The position numbers and the translations under genes are program-made. A DNA stretch of 64,000 bases from Crossiella sp. CA-258035. GTDB taxonomy: Bacteria; Actinomycetota; Actinomycetes; Mycobacteriales; Pseudonocardiaceae. Shown in pieces: positions 10,085 through 17,720 of this stretch. The DNA lies in NCBI RefSeq assembly GCF_030064675.1, contig NZ_CP116413.1, positions 7,159,501 to 7,223,500 on the forward strand, in the 5' to 3' direction. Below the pieces are notes generated by a model. That model was not told the origin of the DNA, made no database searches, and saw nothing but the letters and a program-made list of their open reading frames with translations. Positions within the stretch are counted from its first letter, which is position 1; the number at the start of each line of letters is the position of its first letter.

Positions 10085-10876
10085 TCAGGAACCGCCGACC
10101 GCCTGCTGGCGCAGCGGCATGACCGCGACGTTGTGCGGCCGGAAGGAGTAGACCTGGCCGCCGAAGCCGTCCGGCCCGGCCACCAGGAGCCCGGTGGCCA
10201 GCGCGGTGGCCACGGCCGCGGCGCGGTCGCTGACGTGCAGCTTGGCGAAGATCCGCTGGAGGTGGGTCTTGACCGTGGTCTCGGCGACGAACAGGCGCCT
10301 GCCGATCTCCGCGTTCGTGTGACCTTCGGCGACGAGTCGCAGCACGTCCAGTTCCCGCCCGGACAGCACGGAACGTATCTGGGCCCGGGGCAGCGGCGTG
10401 ACTGTCAGCGGTGACAACTGTGGAGACATCGACGTGACACCGCTGCGCGCCTGCCGGATCGCCGCGATGACCTCGTCCCCCGTCGCGGACTTCAGCACGA
10501 AGCCCATGGCGCCGGCCTGGAGCGCCGCGCCAACGCGGGAACGCTGGTCGGAGAAGACCACGGCGACGATGGGCAGCCGGGTGCGCAGCACCGCCTTGAC
10601 CACCTCGAGCCCGTCCACCTCACCGAGGTCCAGATCGACGAGCACGACGTCGGGACGACGAGCGGTCACCTCGTCCACGATGTGCTCCGCGTCCTGGAGC
10701 GCACCAGCGAACTCGAGGTCGGAGTGCTGGGCGAAACAGGCGCGCAGCCCGTCCGCGACGATCGGGTGCCGGTCGACGACCAGGACCTTGATTGCCTGCG
10801 CGCGCGGTTCTCCCTCACGCGGAGACTGCCCGAAGCTCCCCGGTCGCACCGCGCCTGGACGCTGGCTCAGCGACAT
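10085..10876 (-). CDS. Orphan LuxR/NarL-family response regulator
   Basis: 263 residues. Receiver domain from about residue 28 (IKVLVVDRHPIVADGL) with the phosphoacceptor Asp in VLVDLDLGEVDG, the Ser/Thr switch in VVFSDQ and the conserved Lys in GFVLKSA. The C-terminal LuxR HTH is SGRELDVLRLVAEGHTNAEIGRRLFVAETTVKTHLQRIFAKL. The usual acidic pair near the N-terminus is Asp-Arg here, which may weaken Mg binding. No histidine kinase gene is adjacent, so the partner or activation mode is unknown. A C-terminal tail of about 30 residues follows the HTH. The upstream region is rich in palindromes, suggesting autoregulation. Confidence 0.88.
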   Translation of the reverse strand: MSLSQRPGAVRPGSFGQSPREGEPRAQAIKVLVVDRHPIVADGLRACFAQHSDLEFAGALQDAEHIVDEVTARRPDVVLVDLDLGEVDGLEVVKAVLRTRLPIVAVVFSDQRSRVGAALQAGAMGFVLKSATGDEVIAAIRQARSGVTSMSPQLSPLTVTPLPRAQIRSVLSGRELDVLRLVAEGHTNAEIGRRLFVAETTVKTHLQRIFAKLHVSDRAAAVATALATGLLVAGPDGFGGQVYSFRPHNVAVMPLRQQAVGGS

Positions 10877-10899
10877 GACACACCCCTGCTCAGACGGCC

Positions 10900-10994
10900 C
10901 CAGTCATGACTGGCAAATGCTGATCATCGAGTTGACAACTGATGACAACAGCATGGTACCGACCCCCTGACTGATGGTCAATTAACCAGTCAAC
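10900..10994. promoter_or_regulatory. Palindrome-rich regulatory region upstream of the response regulator
   Basis: Contains a perfect 14-bp palindrome CCAGTCATGACTGG at 10900-10913, an odd palindrome AGTTGACAACT at 10930-10940, a repeated TGACAAC (10933-10939 and 10943-10949, 10-bp period), GGTCAATTAACC at 10976-10987 and GTCAAC at 10989-10994. The clustering on one helical face suggests cooperative binding. The rest of the gap to 11362 holds a CCGTGG/CCACGG hairpin (11197-11215) and no supported gene. Confidence 0.45.
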
Positions 10995-11362
10995 AACCCG
11001 CGACGACCCGACCCGTTCAGATCACCCGTACATGTCACAACCGACATTCGTCGGGACCCCTGACCCCCCGCTGATCGCCACCCACAGTCACCAATCCCCC
11101 CGATCGAAGGATTGCCAACCAGTTGACACACGCTCCAACCCAGCCCTGTCACGTTGACGCAGCACGAACGAGACTCTTACCCTCGCCTCATAAACACCGT
11201 GGGTGAACACCACGGCCGCTACGACACTCACCAGAGGCACAGCATGCAGATCCGCGTCGACACCCGTTTGGGCTAGACATGACTGTGCGTGGAAAGTGCC
11301 GCACCGCCGCGCGCGCAAACGTCCGCACGGCGGCCCCAGCCGTGCCGGTCACGTTGAAGCCG

Positions 11363-12691
11363 TCAGGAGCGCCCGTGGTGGTTGCGCAAAGTCCGCACGG
11401 ACAGCGCAGCCACCTCCTTGAGCAAAGCGGGCCGCACCTCCTCCGGATCCGCGGTGTCCAGGTGCTGGAGCAACTCGTCAAGAGCGGAAAGTCGCCTCTC
11501 CTCCAGCCCCAGGTCGGTGCTCACCTTGACCACGGTCATCAGGGTGCGGATCCGGTCGCCGGTGCCCAGCACTCCGGAGTCCAGCGCGGCCTGAGCACTG
11601 TGAAGCGCGCCGGGCGGGTCGTTGGCACGCAGGGCCAGTTCCGCGCGCAGGATGAGCACCTGGGCGTCGAGCTGGCCACCTGCACTGCGCCGGGTCTCCG
11701 TCACCTGGTTCAGCAGCGCCTCGGCCTGCTCCGCCACTACGTCGTACTCCAGGAAGATGCCGACGTAACCCACCCGCACGCGGCACCACAGCTCCGCGCC
11801 GATGGACTCCTCGTCCGGCTGCAAAGCCAGCTCGAAGTGCTTCGCGGAGGTGTCGAGATCCCCGGTGCGGGTGAGCGCGACGGCGAGCATCCAGTGGCTG
11901 ACCACCAGAAGCTCATCGGCGAGCCGCTTGTCCTCTGCAGCGCACACCTCAGCGAAGGCGGCGGTGATGTGGACGGCCTCCTGGGCAATGTCGACAGCCT
12001 CCATCAGCCTGCCGGACACACCGAACACCGCGGCCAGGGTGGTTCGCGCCTTCACCCGGAGCAGGGCTGCCTGATCAGCGGGGAAGTCATCGGTCCCGAT
12101 CAGCGCGTCGGACTCGGCGACGGCCCGCTGCCCGAACTCCACCGCCTCGCGGTTACGGCCCAGCTCGCGTGCGGCCAGAGTCTGCAGGGTCGAGGTCAGC
12201 GTCCTGGCGGAGGTCGGCAGGCCCCGGTACATCGGCTCGATCGTGGCAAGACGGTCAGCGACGTCCTGGGTGCGGCCGAGCCTGCTGGCGCAGGACGCGG
12301 CAGCGTACTCGCACAGCCACCTCGCCTGCGGCTCACGCACGTCGTGCCGGATGATGTCAAGAACATCCAGCGCCTCGGAGATCCGGCCCGCGAGCAGGTG
12401 GTCGAAGACTCGCGCGGCACCGGCCAGGAACACGCCACCGCTCGGACGGCTGCCGTTGCCGAGCCCGGCGAAGGACTCCGCCGCGACACCGAGCCTGGCC
12501 GCGAGCTGCTCGACGACCTTCGGTGTGGGCATCCGTTGACCGGACTCGAGCCGGGAGAGGTAGCTACTGGACAGGCCCTCACCAGCAAGATCACGCTGGG
12601 TCAGGCCTCGAGCCACGCGAAGCGCACGCAGCCTCTCACCGAACGTCGCCGCAAGCTCACGTTCGGTGCTGACACGCTCGGCAGAACTCAT
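11363..12691 (-). CDS. XRE-family HTH regulator with C-terminal helical-repeat (TPR-like) domain, candidate peptide receptor
   Basis: 442 residues. An N-terminal XRE HTH spans about residues 16-70 (FGERLRALRVARGLTQRDLA... SSSYLSRLESGQRMPTPKVVEQLAARLG). The remaining roughly 350 residues are alpha-helical with repeated amphipathic pairs (for example ARTLTSTLQTLAARELGRNREAVEFGQRA, LLVVSHWMLAVALTRTGDLDTSAKHFELAL), the pattern of TPR-like repeats. HTH plus TPR is the architecture of RRNPP peptide-sensing regulators (Rap, NprR, PlcR, PrgX), although similar proteins without a known peptide are also frequent in actinomycetes. Its ATG lies 27 bases from the ATG of a divergent repeat-peptide gene. 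No Shine-Dalgarno is visible before the ATG; TAGTTA at 12 bases upstream might serve as a -10 for a leaderless message. A peptide-receptor role is inference. Confidence 0.85.
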   Translation of the reverse strand: MSSAERVSTERELAATFGERLRALRVARGLTQRDLAGEGLSSSYLSRLESGQRMPTPKVVEQLAARLGVAAESFAGLGNGSRPSGGVFLAGAARVFDHLLAGRISEALDVLDIIRHDVREPQARWLCEYAAASCASRLGRTQDVADRLATIEPMYRGLPTSARTLTSTLQTLAARELGRNREAVEFGQRAVAESDALIGTDDFPADQAALLRVKARTTLAAVFGVSGRLMEAVDIAQEAVHITAAFAEVCAAEDKRLADELLVVSHWMLAVALTRTGDLDTSAKHFELALQPDEESIGAELWCRVRVGYVGIFLEYDVVAEQAEALLNQVTETRRSAGGQLDAQVLILRAELALRANDPPGALHSAQAALDSGVLGTGDRIRTLMTVVKVSTDLGLEERRLSALDELLQHLDTADPEEVRPALLKEVAALSVRTLRNHHGRS

Positions 12692-12718
12692 GACAGATAA
12701 CTACCCAAGGAGGCAGGC
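12692..12718. promoter_or_regulatory. 27-bp divergent intergenic region between regulator and repeat peptide
   Basis: Only 27 bases separate the two start codons. On the + strand AAGGAGG at 12707-12713 is a near-perfect Shine-Dalgarno for the peptide gene, 5 bases before its ATG. AGATAACTA next to it may hold a -10. Promoters must therefore reach into the opposing coding regions, so regulator binding here would affect both genes. Confidence 0.55.
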
Positions 12719-13000
12719 ATGTTCGTTGCCCTTCTGATGACACTTTACGCGGGAATTGTTCCACTCGCGGACAGCACGACTCAATCCACCGATATCTATT
12801 CGTCGCCTACGGGCTCCGGCCAGACCGTCGTCACCGCTGACTGGCAAGCGTCGACGACAGATCTGACGCACCCCTTCGGACCGGCGCGGGGGATGTTGAC
12901 CGACCTGACACACCCTGTCTCGCCGGGTGCGACGACCAACGATCTCACGCATCCCAACACCCCAGGTTGCGACCAGAAGGACGACCTCACGCACCCGTGA
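12719..13000 (+). CDS. Small repeat peptide precursor with four DLTHP copies (candidate signalling peptide)
   Basis: 93 residues, no family recognised. Residues 2-17 are hydrophobic (FVALLMTLYAGIVPLA) and may direct export, although the usual basic N-region is missing. Residues 18-46 are Ser/Thr-rich. DLTHP then occurs at 48-52, 62-66, 75-79 and 89-93, spaced 14, 13 and 14 residues, preceded by T, T, N or D. Linkers are Pro/Gly-rich and variable, and the last copy is the exact C-terminus. All nucleotide differences among the four DLTHP copies fall in third codon positions, so the peptide, not the DNA, is conserved. It has a very strong ribosome site and a terminator at 13044-13078. No peptide-modifying enzyme is adjacent. 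Multi-copy layout and the divergent HTH/TPR regulator suggest a pheromone precursor processed to a short DLTHP-ending peptide. One Cys (residue 84) lies in the last linker. Confidence 0.8.
   Translation: MFVALLMTLYAGIVPLADSTTQSTDIYSSPTGSGQTVVTADWQASTTDLTHPFGPARGMLTDLTHPVSPGATTNDLTHPNTPGCDQKDDLTHP
12860..12997 (+). repeat. Four coding repeats of DLTHP
   Basis: Repeat cores at 12860-12874, 12902-12916, 12941-12955 and 12983-12997. The codons differ: GAT CTG ACG CAC CCC; GAC CTG ACA CAC CCT; GAT CTC ACG CAT CCC; GAC CTC ACG CAC CCG. Every change is synonymous, indicating old repeats held by selection on the peptide. Confidence 0.9.
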
Positions 13001-13043
13001 CCAGGAGGGCGACGCACGGGGTCTGGCTATCTGACATGTGCGG

Positions 13044-13078
13044 AACGGGTTGTCTCGGCGGCGGCGAGACAACCCGTT
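13044..13078 (+). terminator. Strong stem-loop terminator after the repeat-peptide gene
   Basis: A perfect 14-bp stem: AACGGGTTGTCTCG at 13044-13057 pairs with CGAGACAACCCGTT at 13065-13078 around a 7-base loop, followed by TCTCGTG. It isolates the peptide gene from the nitric oxide synthase gene. Confidence 0.85.
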
Positions 13079-13162
13079 TCTCGTGTCCAGACCCACCCCG
13101 CACCACCCTGCCGGGACCTCAAGCCGCCTCCCGCACCGGTCAAGTACCGCACCCTCCGTAAC

Positions 13163-13190
13163 TAGATTCCTCGTTAGTGTGCACCACTAA
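13163..13190 (+). promoter_or_regulatory. Candidate promoter and operator of nitric oxide synthase
   Basis: TAGATT at 13163-13168 fits a -10 element. About 7 bases later an inverted repeat TTAGTG (13174-13179) / CACTAA (13185-13190) with a 5-base centre would overlap the transcription start, a position typical of a repressor site. The binding protein is unknown. Confidence 0.45.
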
Positions 13191-13254
13191 ACCGCAGCTC
13201 ATGGCCCATCTGGCGGTCACCGGTCACATGTTTGCCGGGTTAAGTTTCCGCGCC

Positions 13255-14541
13255 GTGACTACCCTCAGCGAGCGACCGATGGCCCCCATGGCCTGCCCAG
13301 TCGCGCACGGGGCGATGCCCCTGGAGACGGGGGTGCGGGCGGGTGGTGGCGAGGGTGTCGACGTCGACGAGGCGGAGGACTTCCTCCGGCTCTTCCACGC
13401 CGAGAATCCCCAGGCCGGGCCGGTGGAGCCCCGGCTCTCCGCGGTCCGGGCCGAGATCGCCCTTCGCGGCACCTACCTGCACACTCCCGACGAGCTCGTC
13501 TTCGGCGCGCGGGTCGCCTGGCGCAACAGCGCCCGGTGCATCGGCCGCCTGTACTGGCGCAGCCTGGCCGTGCGCGACCTGCGGCAGGTCACCAACGCCG
13601 CGGACGTCGCCGCCGAGTGCGTCGAGCACCTGCGCCTTGCCACCAACGCCGGCCGCGTCCGGCCCGTGATGACCGTGTTCGCGCCGGACACCCCCGAGCA
13701 GCCCGGCCCGTGCGTCTGGAACGAGCAGCTGGTCCGCTACGCGGGCTACCGGGACGCCTTCGGCAACGTGGTCGGCGATCCGCGCTACGCCGGGTTCACC
13801 GGGGCGGTGACCGAGCTGGGCTGGCGGCCGCCGACCCAGCGCAGCCCGTTCGACCTGCTGCCGCTGGCGGTGGAGACCGCGCACGAGGGGGTGCGGCTGT
13901 TCCCGGTGCCCAGGGACGTGGTCATGGAGGTGCCGCTGGAGCATCCCGACCTGCCCTGGTTCACCGACCTGAGCCTGCGCTGGCACGCGGTCCCGGCGAT
14001 CAGCAACATGCGGCTGTCCATCGGCGGCGTCTCCTACCCGGCCGCCCCGTTCAACGGCTGGTACATGGGCACCGAGATCGGCGCGCGCAACCTCGCCGAC
14101 GCCGACCGCTACGACATGCTGCCGGAGATCGGCGAGCGCCTCGGCCTGGACACCAGCTCGGAGGCAACGCTGTGGCGGGACCGGGCGCTGGTGGAGATCA
14201 ACCGGGCGGTGCTGCACTCCTACGCCTCGGCCGGGGTCACCATCACCGACCACCACACCGAGTCCGAGCGCTTCCTCACCCACCTCAAGAGGGAGGAGAA
14301 GGCGGGGCGGACCTGCCCCGCGGACTGGAGCTGGATCGTTCCCCCGATGTCCGGCTCGCTGACCCCGGTTTTCCACCGCTACTACGAGACCGAGCACCTG
14401 CGCCCGGAGTTCGTGCTCGACCCCGACGCGGCGCACCGGGGCCAGCACGGCGCCCCGCACCGCTTCCCGGCCGCGCCGGATGTGGCGGCCGCGGCCAGGC
14501 GTGGGTTGTTTGCCGCTTTCCGACGACGGTTGAGCGGCTGA
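13255..14541 (+). CDS. nos: Nitric oxide synthase, oxygenase domain only
   Basis: About 428 residues from GTG 13255; the frame is open from 13177 and ATG 13279 is also possible, as no clear ribosome site decides. It makes nitric oxide and citrulline from arginine using heme and a pterin. Visible features: heme-ligating Cys in AWRNSARCIGR (codon 13537-13539), the arginine-binding Glu in FNGWYMGTEIGARN, the pterin-side segment TITDHHTESERF, and CPADWSWIVPPMSGS. No reductase domain is attached, as usual for bacterial NOS, so electrons come from a separate reductase. An N-terminal extension with MACPVAHG precedes the core. The gene has its own candidate promoter/operator. Confidence 0.93.
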   Translation: MTTLSERPMAPMACPVAHGAMPLETGVRAGGGEGVDVDEAEDFLRLFHAENPQAGPVEPRLSAVRAEIALRGTYLHTPDELVFGARVAWRNSARCIGRLYWRSLAVRDLRQVTNAADVAAECVEHLRLATNAGRVRPVMTVFAPDTPEQPGPCVWNEQLVRYAGYRDAFGNVVGDPRYAGFTGAVTELGWRPPTQRSPFDLLPLAVETAHEGVRLFPVPRDVVMEVPLEHPDLPWFTDLSLRWHAVPAISNMRLSIGGVSYPAAPFNGWYMGTEIGARNLADADRYDMLPEIGERLGLDTSSEATLWRDRALVEINRAVLHSYASAGVTITDHHTESERFLTHLKREEKAGRTCPADWSWIVPPMSGSLTPVFHRYYETEHLRPEFVLDPDAAHRGQHGAPHRFPAAPDVAAAARRGLFAAFRRRLSG

Positions 14542-14594
14542 CCAGCTAGTCTGCCTCCGGGGTGTGGTCCGAAAGGACTACAGAGGGGGCAACA

Positions 14595-17500
14595 ATGGCT
14601 GGTCGCGGCGTGGAGTTCCGGCTGCTCGGACCGGTGGAGATCGTCCTGTCCGGACGGTCCGCACCGGTGGAGGCGGCGAAGCATCGAACCCTCTTGGCGT
14701 GCCTGGTGTTGCGGGCCGGGCAACGGGTCGAGGCCACGGAGCTGGTCGGTTACCTGTGGGATGACGAGGACCGTCCCGCACATCCGCGCGGGGCCCTGCA
14801 CACCTATGTGCGCAGGCTGCGACATCTGCTCGGCGCGGGGCTGATCAGCACCGTGGCCGGCGGCTACCGGCTGGCGGCCGAGCCGGAGGCCGCCGACGCG
14901 CACCGCTTCCGGCAGCTGCTGCACACCGCCCGGCAGACCGCGGACCCGGCCGAACGCGCCGCCGTCCTGCACTCCGCGCTGGCCCTGTGGCGCGGCCCGG
15001 CGCTGGCCGACATCACCTCGGCCGCGCTGCGCCGCGACTACGGCGACCCGCTGGACACCGAACGGCTGGACGCCCTGGCGCTGCGCTTCGACACCGAGCT
15101 GGCCATGGGCAGGCACGAGTCACTGGTGCCGGACCTGTGGAAAGCGACCGCCGAGCACCCGCTGCGCGAGGAGTTCTGGCACCAGCTGATGCTCGCCCTT
15201 TACCGCACCCAGCGCCAGGCCGAGGCGCTGGAGACCTACCAGCGGGCCGCGGACGTGCTGCGCCAAGAGCTCGGCGTCGAACCCAGCGCCCGCCTGCGCG
15301 AGCTGCGCCAGTCGGTGCTGACCAACGACCCGGCCCTGGCCGCGCCCGCGCCGATGACAACCGCGGTCGCCGCCTGGCAGCCCGTCTGTCAACTCCCGCC
15401 GGACATCGGTGACTTCGTCGGCAGGGACCGCCTCGGCCACCGCGTCGCCGAACAGCTGCGCCGCGGCCGCCCGGTGCTGGTCTCCGGCCCGCCAGGGGTG
15501 GGCAAGACCGCGCTCGCGGTCCGGGTCGGCCACCGGCTGCGCGCGGACTTCCCGGACGGCCAGCTGCACGTGAACCTGCACGGCTACGCCACCGAGGCCG
15601 CCCTGCGCCCCACCGACGTGCTGGCCCGGTTCCTGCGCGGGCTGGGCGTGCCGCCGGCGCAGATCCCGCTGGAACAGGAGCAGCAGGCGGAGCTGTTCCG
15701 CTCGGTGCTGCGCGGGCGACGGGTGCTGGTGCTGCTGGACAACGCGTCGGCGGCGGAGCAGGTGCTGCCGCTGCTCCCGGCCGAACCGGGCTGCGCGGCC
15801 CTGATCACCAGCCGCAACCAGCTCCCCGGCCTCGGCCTGACGGTCACCCTGGACGCGCTGCGGCACGAGGACGCGCTGGCACTGCTCACCCGCACGCTGG
15901 GTTCGGCGGAGCCGGAAGCGCTGGATGAGCTCGCCGAGCTGTGCGCGCACCTGCCGCTGGCACTGCGGATCGCGGCGGCGAACCTGGCCGAGACGACCGG
16001 AACCTGCCTGGCCAACCGGGTACGGCAGATCAGCGGCGGGAACCGGTTGACCTCGCTGGCGATCGACGGGGATCCGGAGGCCGCCGTCCAGCAGGCGTTC
16101 GGCCGCTCCTACCGGACCCTGTTGCCGGAGCACCAGCGACTGTTCCGGTTCCTGGGGCTGGTGCCCGGACCGGACTTCACCGCGGCGTCCGCGGCGGCGC
16201 TGATCGGTGTGCCCGAGCGGCACGCGGCCTCGCTGCTGGAAGAGCTGGCCACGGCGAACCTGGTGCAGCGACAGGAGGACGGCCGGTTCCAGCTGCACGA
16301 CCTGATCCGCCTCTACGCCGAACACCGTTGCCACGCCGAGGAATCAGCCGAGTCCAGGGACGCGGCGTTCCAGCGCTGGTTCGACTTCTACCTCTACGGC
16401 GCGGACCGGGCCACCGAGCTGCTGTACCGGGAGGTGTCCCGGACCAGGCTGGACGATCCACCGCCCGGCACCGGCCCGAGCGGCTTCCCCGACCACCGCG
16501 CCGCGCGGCACTGGTTCGACCTGGAGCGGCCGAACCTGGTGGCCGCCACGCTGCGCGCGGCGGAGGAGTCCAGGGACGACCGCGCGTGGCGGCTGGCCGA
16601 CACGCTGCGCGGCTACTTCCAGCACGCCAGGCTGCTCAACGACTGGCTGACCACGACCGAAGCCGGGCTGCGCAGCGCGATCCGGCTGGAGGACCCGATC
16701 GCACAGGCGTGCATGCACCACGGGCTCGGCGTGCTGCACTGGTTCCTCGGTCAGCAGGACACCTCGATGGAGCACCTGGACCTGGCGCGGGCCGACCTGG
16801 CGGACAGCCCGGAACAGGTGCGGCTGGCCAACGTGATCGCCAACCAGGGCATCAACCACGTGGACCGGCGGGATCACCGGCAGGCGATCCGCTGCTACCG
16901 GCAGGCGCTGGAGATGTACGTGGCGCTCGGCGACGAGTACCGGCAGGTGCCGCTGCTGAGCAACTTCGGCATCGTGCTGCGCGAGCTCGGTCAGCTGGAC
17001 ACCGCGCGGAACTGCTACCTGCGCGCGCTGGAGATCGCGCGCAGGCGGGGTCTGGCCAACTCCGAGGCGGTGCTGCACAACAACCTCGGCTTCGTCCTGT
17101 GGGATCTGGGCGATCCCGAGGGGGCGCTCGCCAGGCTGCACGAGGCGTTGGCGGTCTTCGACCGGATGGGTGGCAGGTACGGGGAGCTGAACACGCTCAT
17201 CGGCCTGGCCGCGGTGCACACGGAACTGGGCGCGCTTGACCGGGCCGAGGACCTGGTGGCGGAGGCGGTGACCCGAGCGGAGTCGTCAGCGGACCACAAG
17301 GAGCTCGCCCACGGGCACAACGTGTTCGGCGTCGTGACGCGGGAACGGCAGCGGTTCCACCTGGCGGTGGCCCACCATCACCAGGCGCTGGAACTGAGCC
17401 GGGACACCGGGTACGCCCAGTTCGAGACCGACGCGCTGCTCGGCCTGGCCGACACACATCACGCGATGGGGGAACCGCGGCTCGCGCTCGACCACGCGCT

Positions 17501-17720
17501 GGCCGCGCTCACCCTGGCCGCCGAGGTCGGTTACGGCGTCCGGCTCGGCCAGGCGCACACCTCGCTCGCCCGGATCCACCTCGACCTCGGCGAGCTGCCG
17601 ACCGCCCGCGCGCACGCCGCCAAAGCCCTTGCCAGCCACCGGAAAACCGGGCACCGCCCCGGCGAGGAGCGCACCGTGGAGGTGCTGGCCCAGATCGCCG
17701 AGGCGGAGCGGGAGAGCTAG
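14595..17720 (+). CDS. AfsR-like regulator: SARP DNA-binding domain, BTAD, NB-ARC ATPase and TPR repeats
   Basis: 1041 residues from ATG 14595, preceded by GAGGGGG. Order: winged-helix OmpR-type DNA-binding domain about residues 4-90 (EFRLLGPVEIVLSG... LHTYVRRLRHLL), bacterial transcriptional activation domain about 95-240 (DAHRFRQLL... EFWHQLMLALYRTQRQAEALETYQ), NB-ARC domain from about 270 with Walker A VSGPPGVGKTALA and VLLDNA, and TPR repeats from about 640 to the end. This is the AfsR class that activates secondary metabolism or morphological genes in actinomycetes. It starts 53 bases after the NOS gene in the same direction. Target genes cannot be told from sequence. Confidence 0.92.
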   Translation: MAGRGVEFRLLGPVEIVLSGRSAPVEAAKHRTLLACLVLRAGQRVEATELVGYLWDDEDRPAHPRGALHTYVRRLRHLLGAGLISTVAGGYRLAAEPEAADAHRFRQLLHTARQTADPAERAAVLHSALALWRGPALADITSAALRRDYGDPLDTERLDALALRFDTELAMGRHESLVPDLWKATAEHPLREEFWHQLMLALYRTQRQAEALETYQRAADVLRQELGVEPSARLRELRQSVLTNDPALAAPAPMTTAVAAWQPVCQLPPDIGDFVGRDRLGHRVAEQLRRGRPVLVSGPPGVGKTALAVRVGHRLRADFPDGQLHVNLHGYATEAALRPTDVLARFLRGLGVPPAQIPLEQEQQAELFRSVLRGRRVLVLLDNASAAEQVLPLLPAEPGCAALITSRNQLPGLGLTVTLDALRHEDALALLTRTLGSAEPEALDELAELCAHLPLALRIAAANLAETTGTCLANRVRQISGGNRLTSLAIDGDPEAAVQQAFGRSYRTLLPEHQRLFRFLGLVPGPDFTAASAAALIGVPERHAASLLEELATANLVQRQEDGRFQLHDLIRLYAEHRCHAEESAESRDAAFQRWFDFYLYGADRATELLYREVSRTRLDDPPPGTGPSGFPDHRAARHWFDLERPNLVAATLRAAEESRDDRAWRLADTLRGYFQHARLLNDWLTTTEAGLRSAIRLEDPIAQACMHHGLGVLHWFLGQQDTSMEHLDLARADLADSPEQVRLANVIANQGINHVDRRDHRQAIRCYRQALEMYVALGDEYRQVPLLSNFGIVLRELGQLDTARNCYLRALEIARRRGLANSEAVLHNNLGFVLWDLGDPEGALARLHEALAVFDRMGGRYGELNTLIGLAAVHTELGALDRAEDLVAEAVTRAESSADHKELAHGHNVFGVVTRERQRFHLAVAHHHQALELSRDTGYAQFETDALLGLADTHHAMGEPRLALDHALAALTLAAEVGYGVRLGQAHTSLARIHLDLGELPTARAHAAKALASHRKTGHRPGEERTVEVLAQIAEAERES

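Follow-up and report, generated by a model that had tools for sequence, protein, structure and literature searches.

The 64,000-nucleotide stretch of Crossiella sp. CA-258035 analysed here (the window), which lies within a 9.17 Mb single-contig genome, carries what is quite likely a two-gene peptide-pheromone cassette, in which a small precursor open reading frame (ORF) that repeats the pentapeptide DLTHP stands beside a divergent gene for a receptor with a helix-turn-helix (HTH) and a TPR-like domain. An earlier note, made from the letters of this DNA, had proposed that the regulator senses a DLTHP-ending peptide. Comparison with relatives supports the pheromone reading, as does the likeness of the predicted receptor fold to PlcR-PapR7, while the peptide binding in that proposal is something we infer. 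Judging by the sequences compared, DLTHP is one pherotype of a larger family of motifs, xΦx(W/H/N/Y)P. We also consider it reasonably probable that there is a broad actinobacterial pheromone family with PlcR-like receptors and one to six copies of such motifs, represented in Crossiella and several other Pseudonocardiaceae as well as in Streptomyces and Kitasatospora (in part on linear plasmids), and that close relatives within Crossiella have exchanged whole cassettes at one constant site.

DLTHP starts at residues 48, 62, 75 and 89 of the precursor, spaced by 14, 13 and 14 residues, and the last copy is the C-terminus, exactly as the earlier note had described. Its statement that the copies differ only synonymously is likewise borne out: over all pairs of the four copies, the proportion of nonsynonymous differences (pN) is 0.0 and that of synonymous differences (pS) is 0.83, and therefore the repetition is constrained at the protein level rather than being the product of recent slippage. 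Shuffling the protein 100,000 times never gave more than two copies of any 5-mer composed of four or more different letters, as compared with the four copies observed; when any 5-mer was admitted, in a cruder shuffle, four copies were reached in 2 of 20,000 cases.

The pair is conserved as a unit. Searching 297 genomes of the family with the regulator gave matches at E ≤ 1e-20 in 36 and at E below 1e-100 in eight, and a profile of the precursor matched exactly those eight, namely all five Crossiella genomes (that of the window included) and all three genomes of a genus here called g34. Within the named collection, the regulator is 99% identical to that of Crossiella sp. SN42 and 67% identical to that of Crossiella sp. 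S99.2. The earlier note had named a broken reading frame in relatives, or homologous regulators without a nearby repeat peptide, as grounds for giving up its proposal, and neither refuted it: among these eight, the window's genome counted, the ORF is open in every case, the repeat peptide lies beside every regulator, and the precursor starts the same 27 bp away. The precursors, of 93 amino acids (aa) in the window and 101–133 aa in six relatives, all have a hydrophobic N-terminus with the common leader M[FLY]VA[LF]LMTLYAGI.

The motif changes with the lineage. DLTHP is present four times in two Crossiella genomes (G000 and G086), D[IL]GHP five times in a third (G055), DITNP six times in a fourth (G108, copies with pN 0 and pS 0.28) and D[VA][VTI]YP six times in a fifth (G016), whereas g34 has three to four copies of [DGN][IV][EA]WP. 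Each of the four Crossiella types ends exactly with its last copy, and in g34 two residues follow it. Two of the three g34 precursors (L073 and L075) have GIGHP or GIGNP beside copies of GVEWP or GIEWP, which look like possible intermediates of a specificity shift between the W and the H/N types.

The regulator matches HTH_31, HTH_3 and HTH_19 in Pfam above the cut-off and TPR models below it only, and neither Pfam nor NCBIfam gave an RRNPP-specific family match, their matches being generic HTH or sub-threshold ones. An AlphaFold2 model built from 19 sequences (mean predicted local distance difference test score 82.9, predicted TM-score 0.69) shows an HTH that leads into a long solenoid of helical repeats, in agreement with the two domains that the earlier note had read from the translation. 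When the model was compared with the PDB by Foldseek, the top match was the PlcR-PapR7-DNA complex (E 2.1e-6), and NprR, ComR and a Rap were also below 1e-3. The modelled fold supports a TPR solenoid of the peptide-binding type; taken alone, it assigns no family. A sequence-profile search of the PDB matched PlcR over residues 12–125, extending past the HTH, with designed PPR proteins and small HTH proteins ranking above it.

Of 37 regulators that accompany this kind of peptide, all have W125, R175, W267, R304 and R382, 36 have R275 and 34 have R306, and in our reading all seven positions are in A helices of TPR pairs. The same positions are kept in four regulators that accompany FTPPY-type peptides (see below), and thus they are not specific to the present peptide type. 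Positions 174 (L to A) and 221 (S to A) distinguish the four Crossiella types from g34, and also from 24/30 and 29/30 W types, respectively, a separation among only four related sequences that may be due to descent alone. The recognition helix (residues 42–49) is identical across the five pherotypes compared.

Between close relatives the cassette diverges more than its flanks. Compared with G055 and G108 in 150-bp steps, the window is 0.85–0.97 identical over 10200–11400 and 13050–14850, 0.54–0.77 over 11550–12300, and 0.28–0.56 over 12750–12900, with gaps counted as mismatches. G055 and G108, which have different peptides, are 98% identical to each other in both flanks and 96% at the C-terminal end of the regulator, and 64% in its TPR part; the change-points of this tract are near 11540 and 13040. 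Over 19 kb, most 300-bp windows of the same two genomes are 0.92–0.99 identical, the exceptions being the cassette island, a SARP gene and a few shorter stretches. Informative sites are discordant as well: those for G055 with G108 prevail in the left flank (41 vs. 2 and 0), the right flank (36 vs. 4 and 2) and the regulator's C-terminal end (7 vs. 1 and 1), whereas those for G000 with G055 prevail in the TPR part (63 vs. 36 and 24) and the HTH (13 vs. 4 and 3). The pattern is as if one pherotype cassette had been swapped for another, which would leave most of it, although the repeat part adds nothing. Synonymous divergence of the regulator is about 0.8 from G055, G108 and G016, as compared with 0.16–0.56 in ten neighbouring genes of the same genomes, suggesting old, exchanged alleles; the lower G+C content at third codon positions of the regulator (0.84 vs. 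0.87–0.97 in nine neighbours) may contribute. No such island is seen in the regulator of g34, a genus with an unchanged motif class; identity drops there in the repeat region.

The family has also spread to Streptomyces. A tblastn search with the window regulator returned 49 plasmid records, 43 of them from Streptomyces, and a plasmid search with the Crossiella precursor gave no match. On the plasmid of Streptomyces sp. NBC_00158, a divergent 75-aa ORF has a signal-like N-terminus and three copies of IDWP, of which the third is C-terminal, and follow-on searches from it found regulators in 37 plasmid records and in 34/204 Streptomyces genomes. A DVEWP-type precursor is present in eight plasmid records, all among those 37. 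The small ORFs of these relatives have one to six xΦxWP-type motifs, several with a single motif at the very C-terminus, and are divergent from the regulator, upstream of it in the same direction, or convergent downstream. By eye, the leaders in Streptomyces look classic, with lysine or arginine plus a hydrophobic N-terminus as is typical for export.

Around the regulators we scanned for ORFs of 30–170 aa whose N-terminus is hydrophobic and which have two or more x[ILVA]x[WHNY]P motifs with the same final two letters, or else a terminal [ILV][DEGAT]WP followed by no more than two residues, reaching 3.5 kb from the regulator or less where the stretch was shorter (1.5 kb at many loci, including all those of genus g8), and covering 23 of the 37 regulator-bearing plasmid records. 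A motif-bearing precursor was found near the regulator at 38/98 loci, or 38/76 when g8, a putatively Amycolatopsis-like genus, is set aside: 5/5 in Crossiella, 3/3 in g34, 4/6 in other Pseudonocardiaceae genera, 19/36 for Streptomyces genome loci, 7/23 for plasmid loci and 0/3 for remote homologues. Left out of these counts were L097 (no repeat found), loci with a truncated regulator in G105 and G252, a second copy from G876 and a partial match in G688, and a second G870 copy inside L183 was counted once. The loci are not all independent, since five plasmid records are exactly as long as genome contigs also counted. All ten are negative, although the S. finlayi plasmid among them does encode a DVEWP-type precursor at a distance of about 25 kb. 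Also negative under the scan rule is L100, which has the leader of L099 with NIGWP and NIGWS. ORFs meeting the rule number 40 in 570 kb near a regulator, two of them spurious (both in L109, overlaps outside the family), and 4 in 445 kb farther off, a contrast that is descriptive only because the rule was drawn up after examples were known. The four far ORFs, with the pairs KALNP/LIRNP, PVRHP/AVLHP, CVSWP/VARWP and AAAHP/AVAHP, we judge to be chance, and further chance-like matches are in L002, L160 and L185.

With one label per locus, chosen by us, the motif classes required 13 parsimony changes on a 41-tip regulator tree, as compared with a shuffled mean of 24.6 and minimum of 19 (0/5,000 shuffles as low); on 31 tips, without near-duplicates and FTPPY types, 12 changes compared with 16.7 (1/5,000 as low). 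Two genera, g2 and g11, were read early on as peptide-less, which was wrong: wider scans found GIEWP-type precursors downstream of their regulators. In g29 no peptide precursor was found, in the wider scans as well. The g11 precursor (L012, 3160–3459, minus strand) is convergent with the regulator and has GIEWP five times.

By analogy with PlcR-PapR, the hydrophobic N-terminus would direct export of the precursor, which would be cleaved to several Asp-to-Pro pentapeptides (DLTHP in the window) or slightly longer forms, after which the peptide would return to the cytoplasm, probably via an oligopeptide permease, and bind to the divergently encoded HTH-TPR regulator, in the groove of its TPR domain. 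The peptide-bound regulator would then change its action at the shared promoter region, such that the receptor and signal genes would control themselves, possibly along with targets beyond the locus. The genome has 12 matches to SBP_bac_5, a family of the oligopeptide-binding class. The intergenic region and leader codons 3–13 are nearly invariant across Crossiella and g34, mostly at synonymous sites too, which fits overlapping promoters.

Several observations weigh against these readings. The constraint on the copies is looser in the other types, with pN/pS of 0.034/0.588 in G055 and 0.12/0.369 in G016, and pN of 0.14–0.21 vs. pS of 0.26–0.38 in g34. The Crossiella leader has no lysine or arginine before its hydrophobic stretch and is therefore no textbook Sec signal. 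Many eukaryotic TPR proteins, such as LGN, also match the regulator model below 1e-3, some with TM-scores higher than that of PlcR. In the poorly alignable repeat part, 10 informative sites are for G055 with G108 vs. 6 and 1, and the divergence island is not unique to the cassette, as the neighbouring SARP gene has one. Class-wide, the distribution is patchy: the window regulator was found in 2/394 genomes, one of them the window's own, and the Streptomyces profile in 4/193, all of one genus. No precursor lies within the scanned stretch at 17/36 Streptomyces genome loci and 16/23 plasmid loci. The tree test, moreover, is no proof of recognition, since a trait inherited with the gene follows the gene tree anyway.

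The loci of g8 belong to the same side of the balance. A motif of the xΦx(W/H/N/Y)P type is present within 1.5 kb on each side at 0/22 of them, and instead all 22, as well as one g22 locus, have a divergent ORF of 43–53 aa with a signal-like N-terminus and F[TLMHN]PP[YF]. Eleven of 14 further FTPPY-type loci have no regulator match within 6 kb, and the others are two g8 loci with regulator pieces and one weak edge match. Because FTPPY peptides occur without the regulator, this branch was not counted as support, and their membership of the same peptide family was dropped as unproven. The F[TLMHN]PP[YF] motif lies near the C-terminus and occurs in several Pseudonocardiaceae genera (loci L037–L058 and L016).

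Alternatively, the small protein might stay whole in the cell and act on the XRE protein as an anti-regulator, with the repeats as binding epitopes, in the manner of an XRE-DUF397-like or antitoxin-like pair. Tight divergent pairing and joint divergence of regulator and repeats would fit any direct partner, and the Crossiella leader, lacking lysine and arginine, is in keeping with a protein that stays inside. However, we consider this unlikely, since the precursor has no DUF397 match in Pfam at E up to 1 and no toxin match in Pfam, NCBIfam or an anti-phage library (the last gave no precursor match at all, and its regulator matches were confined to the HTH range). Further, as judged by eye, the spacers between the motifs vary while the motifs are kept, and the Streptomyces relatives, with their charged and hydrophobic N-termini and in some cases a single C-terminal motif, resemble exported pheromone precursors.

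It is rather improbable that the repeats are the cores of a modified product or antimicrobial, that is, of a multi-core ribosomally synthesized and post-translationally modified peptide (RiPP), with the XRE protein as pathway or immunity regulator. RiPPs can have repeated cores with spacers and fast-changing sequence, and the ATP-grasp class includes RiPP-modifying ligases; ATP-grasp genes near the precursors on the plasmids of Streptomyces sp. NBC_00158 and NBC_01006 thus count for this explanation and against a pheromone, and other homologues adjoin genes for nonribosomal peptide synthetases (NRPS) or condensation domains. However, none of 13 window neighbours compared with Pfam has a family name recognised as a RiPP enzyme, one of them having a PPDK ATP-binding domain about 6 kb from the pair. 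The pair also stays while its neighbours differ between Crossiella and g34, the nitric oxide synthase and SARP genes of Crossiella having no match in the g34 stretches, and the TPR receptor itself diverges along with the peptide. That the repeats arose by slippage in a secreted, proline-rich protein with no role in signalling, with the joint divergence due to a recombination hot spot, draws on the second island in the nearby SARP gene, which indicates that the region recombines, but is very improbable given the purely synonymous differences between the DLTHP copies and the concentration of motif-bearing ORFs beside this regulator family in other genera.

Under the preferred pheromone reading, the cassette most resembles RRNPP (RRNPPA) systems, in which we compared it with PlcR-PapR, NprR-NprX, Rap-Phr, Rgg-SHP, ComR-ComS and AimR: a receptor with HTH and TPR-like domains (442 aa here) adjoins a small propeptide gene with a hydrophobic N-terminus, the best PDB fold match is PlcR-PapR7-DNA, and the motif is pentapeptide-sized, as in Phr. 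Rap itself has no HTH. It departs from Firmicutes RRNPP systems in its actinobacterial hosts, in a regulator whose Pfam matches are limited to generic HTH models and to TPR models below the cut-off, and in the placement of the precursor (divergent, upstream or convergent, as against just downstream). Its motif is xΦx(W/H/N/Y)P, commonly in two to six copies, with binding presumed. RRNPP receptors have a TPR-like solenoid, in most members behind an N-terminal HTH; a receptor length of 250–500 aa and a propeptide range of 10–100 aa for RRNPP_detector are given in the literature (PMC10075063). The window propeptide is within this range, and six relatives exceed it. Intragenic autoinducer repeats are described for multiple cases of Bacillus Rap-Phr, where, in the portion of the paper available, previously analysed Phr are called single-peptide (Even-Tov et al., 2016, PMC5199041). 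As in those cases, the precursor has several identical or near-identical copies of the presumed signal, and diverged alleles appear to be gained by horizontal transfer; unlike what that portion describes (PMC5199041), 3–6 copies are present in all eight Crossiella and g34 genomes. The pair also recalls the XRE-DUF397 pairs of Streptomyces, in which an XRE regulator has a small protein partner in actinobacteria. However, DUF397 is unmatched here, and in the passages available on those pairs repeats, a hydrophobic leader and a TPR domain are not named.

Gamma-butyrolactone signalling in Streptomyces is cell-cell signalling in the same bacteria, its signals being enzyme-made small molecules with TetR-type receptors. 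In the available parts of the literature, actinobacterial signals are typically enzyme-made small molecules and oligopeptide signals are the way of Firmicutes (PMC10075063), in which RRNPPA is treated (PMC9765709); a 2016 review names mostly butyrolactone-type autoregulators and gives cyclic or modified peptides one sentence, with no system of this kind in the parts available (PMC4748050), and a 2026 review names butyrolactones alone for Streptomyces (PMC13220807). Searches of the open-access PubMed Central literature yielded nothing on DLTHP, only unrelated titles for six W-type motifs and, among the matches listed, no description of this system under RRNPP, peptide pheromones or quorum sensing in actinobacteria, in line with the earlier note, which knew of no described actinobacterial example with this peptide. 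The mechanism class and the trick of repeating the signal are known, then, while in the literature searched we met no account of the family in actinobacteria, of its motif or of the exchange of cassettes, all of which thus seem to be undescribed, and we judge the cassette to be a new, actinobacterial variant of RRNPP-like signalling.

If confirmed, this would be a genetically encoded language of about five residues for Streptomyces and relatives, bacteria better known for small-molecule signals, with clear signal-receptor pairs and signal peptides that are cheap to synthesise and test. The swapped pherotype cassettes of Crossiella would be natural kin-recognition types and a natural experiment in the joint change of signal and receptor specificity. 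Some homologues lie among biosynthetic genes, and therefore the peptides might wake silent clusters. The plasmid regulators of Streptomyces and Kitasatospora at L095, L098, L099, L100, L101, L102, L103, L109 and L111 adjoin biosynthetic or regulatory genes (ATP-grasp, NRPS, condensation domain, aminotransferase V and AfsR/SARP), hinting at control of secondary metabolism.

The layout of the locus is given in Table 1. The 27-bp spacing of the divergent start codons and the near-perfect ribosome site, both pointed out in the earlier note, are as it had stated, the latter reading AAGGAGG. Its strong terminator stands in part: the hairpin behind the precursor is strong (−31.1 kcal/mol over 51 nt folded, z −5.2), but it has no full T-run, which in our reading is why a consensus terminator scan did not list it. 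The inverted repeat, with perfect 10-bp arms and a 12-bp gap inside the 5′ coding sequence of the regulator, is a candidate operator, with coding constraint as the alternative cause. A scan for its inner 8-bp arms, with up to one mismatch, gave a single occurrence in each genome of 5/5 Crossiella, and therefore it gave no further targets and was rejected as a key to a regulon.

Table 1. Features of the cassette and its surroundings, in window coordinates.
Feature	Position	Strand	Basis
HTH-TPR regulator, putative cytoplasmic peptide receptor, 442 aa	11363..12691	-	ORF call, Pfam, AlphaFold2 model, fold search
HTH DNA-binding domain, regulator residues 17-72	12476..12643	-	Pfam; pherotype comparison
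Inverted repeat CACCGAACGT-N12-ACGTTCGGTG, candidate operator	12637..12668	.	Repeat search, genome pattern scan
Precursor Shine-Dalgarno AAGGAGG	12707..12713	+	GGAGG kept in 8/8 aligned rows
Peptide precursor ORF, 93 aa	12719..13000	+	ORF call; relatives' ORFs
Precursor leader, residues 1-25, conserved, hydrophobic, no K/R	12719..12793	+	Comparison across two genera; synonymous sites largely conserved as well
DLTHP copy 1	12860..12874	+	
DLTHP copy 2	12902..12916	+	
DLTHP copy 3	12941..12955	+	
DLTHP copy 4, exact C-terminus	12983..12997	+	
Strong hairpin 3' of precursor, probable terminator, no full T-run	13042..13080	+	Folding
Divergence island G055 vs G108, inferred exchanged pherotype cassette	11540..13040	.	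Flanks 98% identical

Directly after the precursor is a gene for a bacterial nitric oxide synthase oxygenase (13216–14538), which adjoins the pair in the Crossiella stretches examined and was dropped as a partner for want of a match in the g34 stretches. The second island, at 15900–17600, covers the TPR half of a neighbouring BTAD/AAA/TPR (SARP-like) regulator, where G055 and G108 are 0.45–0.64 identical over 16000–17400 and the window is closer to G108 than to G055; this regulator might be another sensor, one varying together with the peptide. At L096, a regulator 86% identical to that of L095 has upstream of 2489 only a short, leader-like divergent ORF with no motif, perhaps a decayed precursor. 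Finally, G876 has two regulator copies of equal score on its 8.66 Mb contig C1 (141491–142705 and 8517390–8518604), equidistant from the two contig ends, as in terminal inverted repeats.

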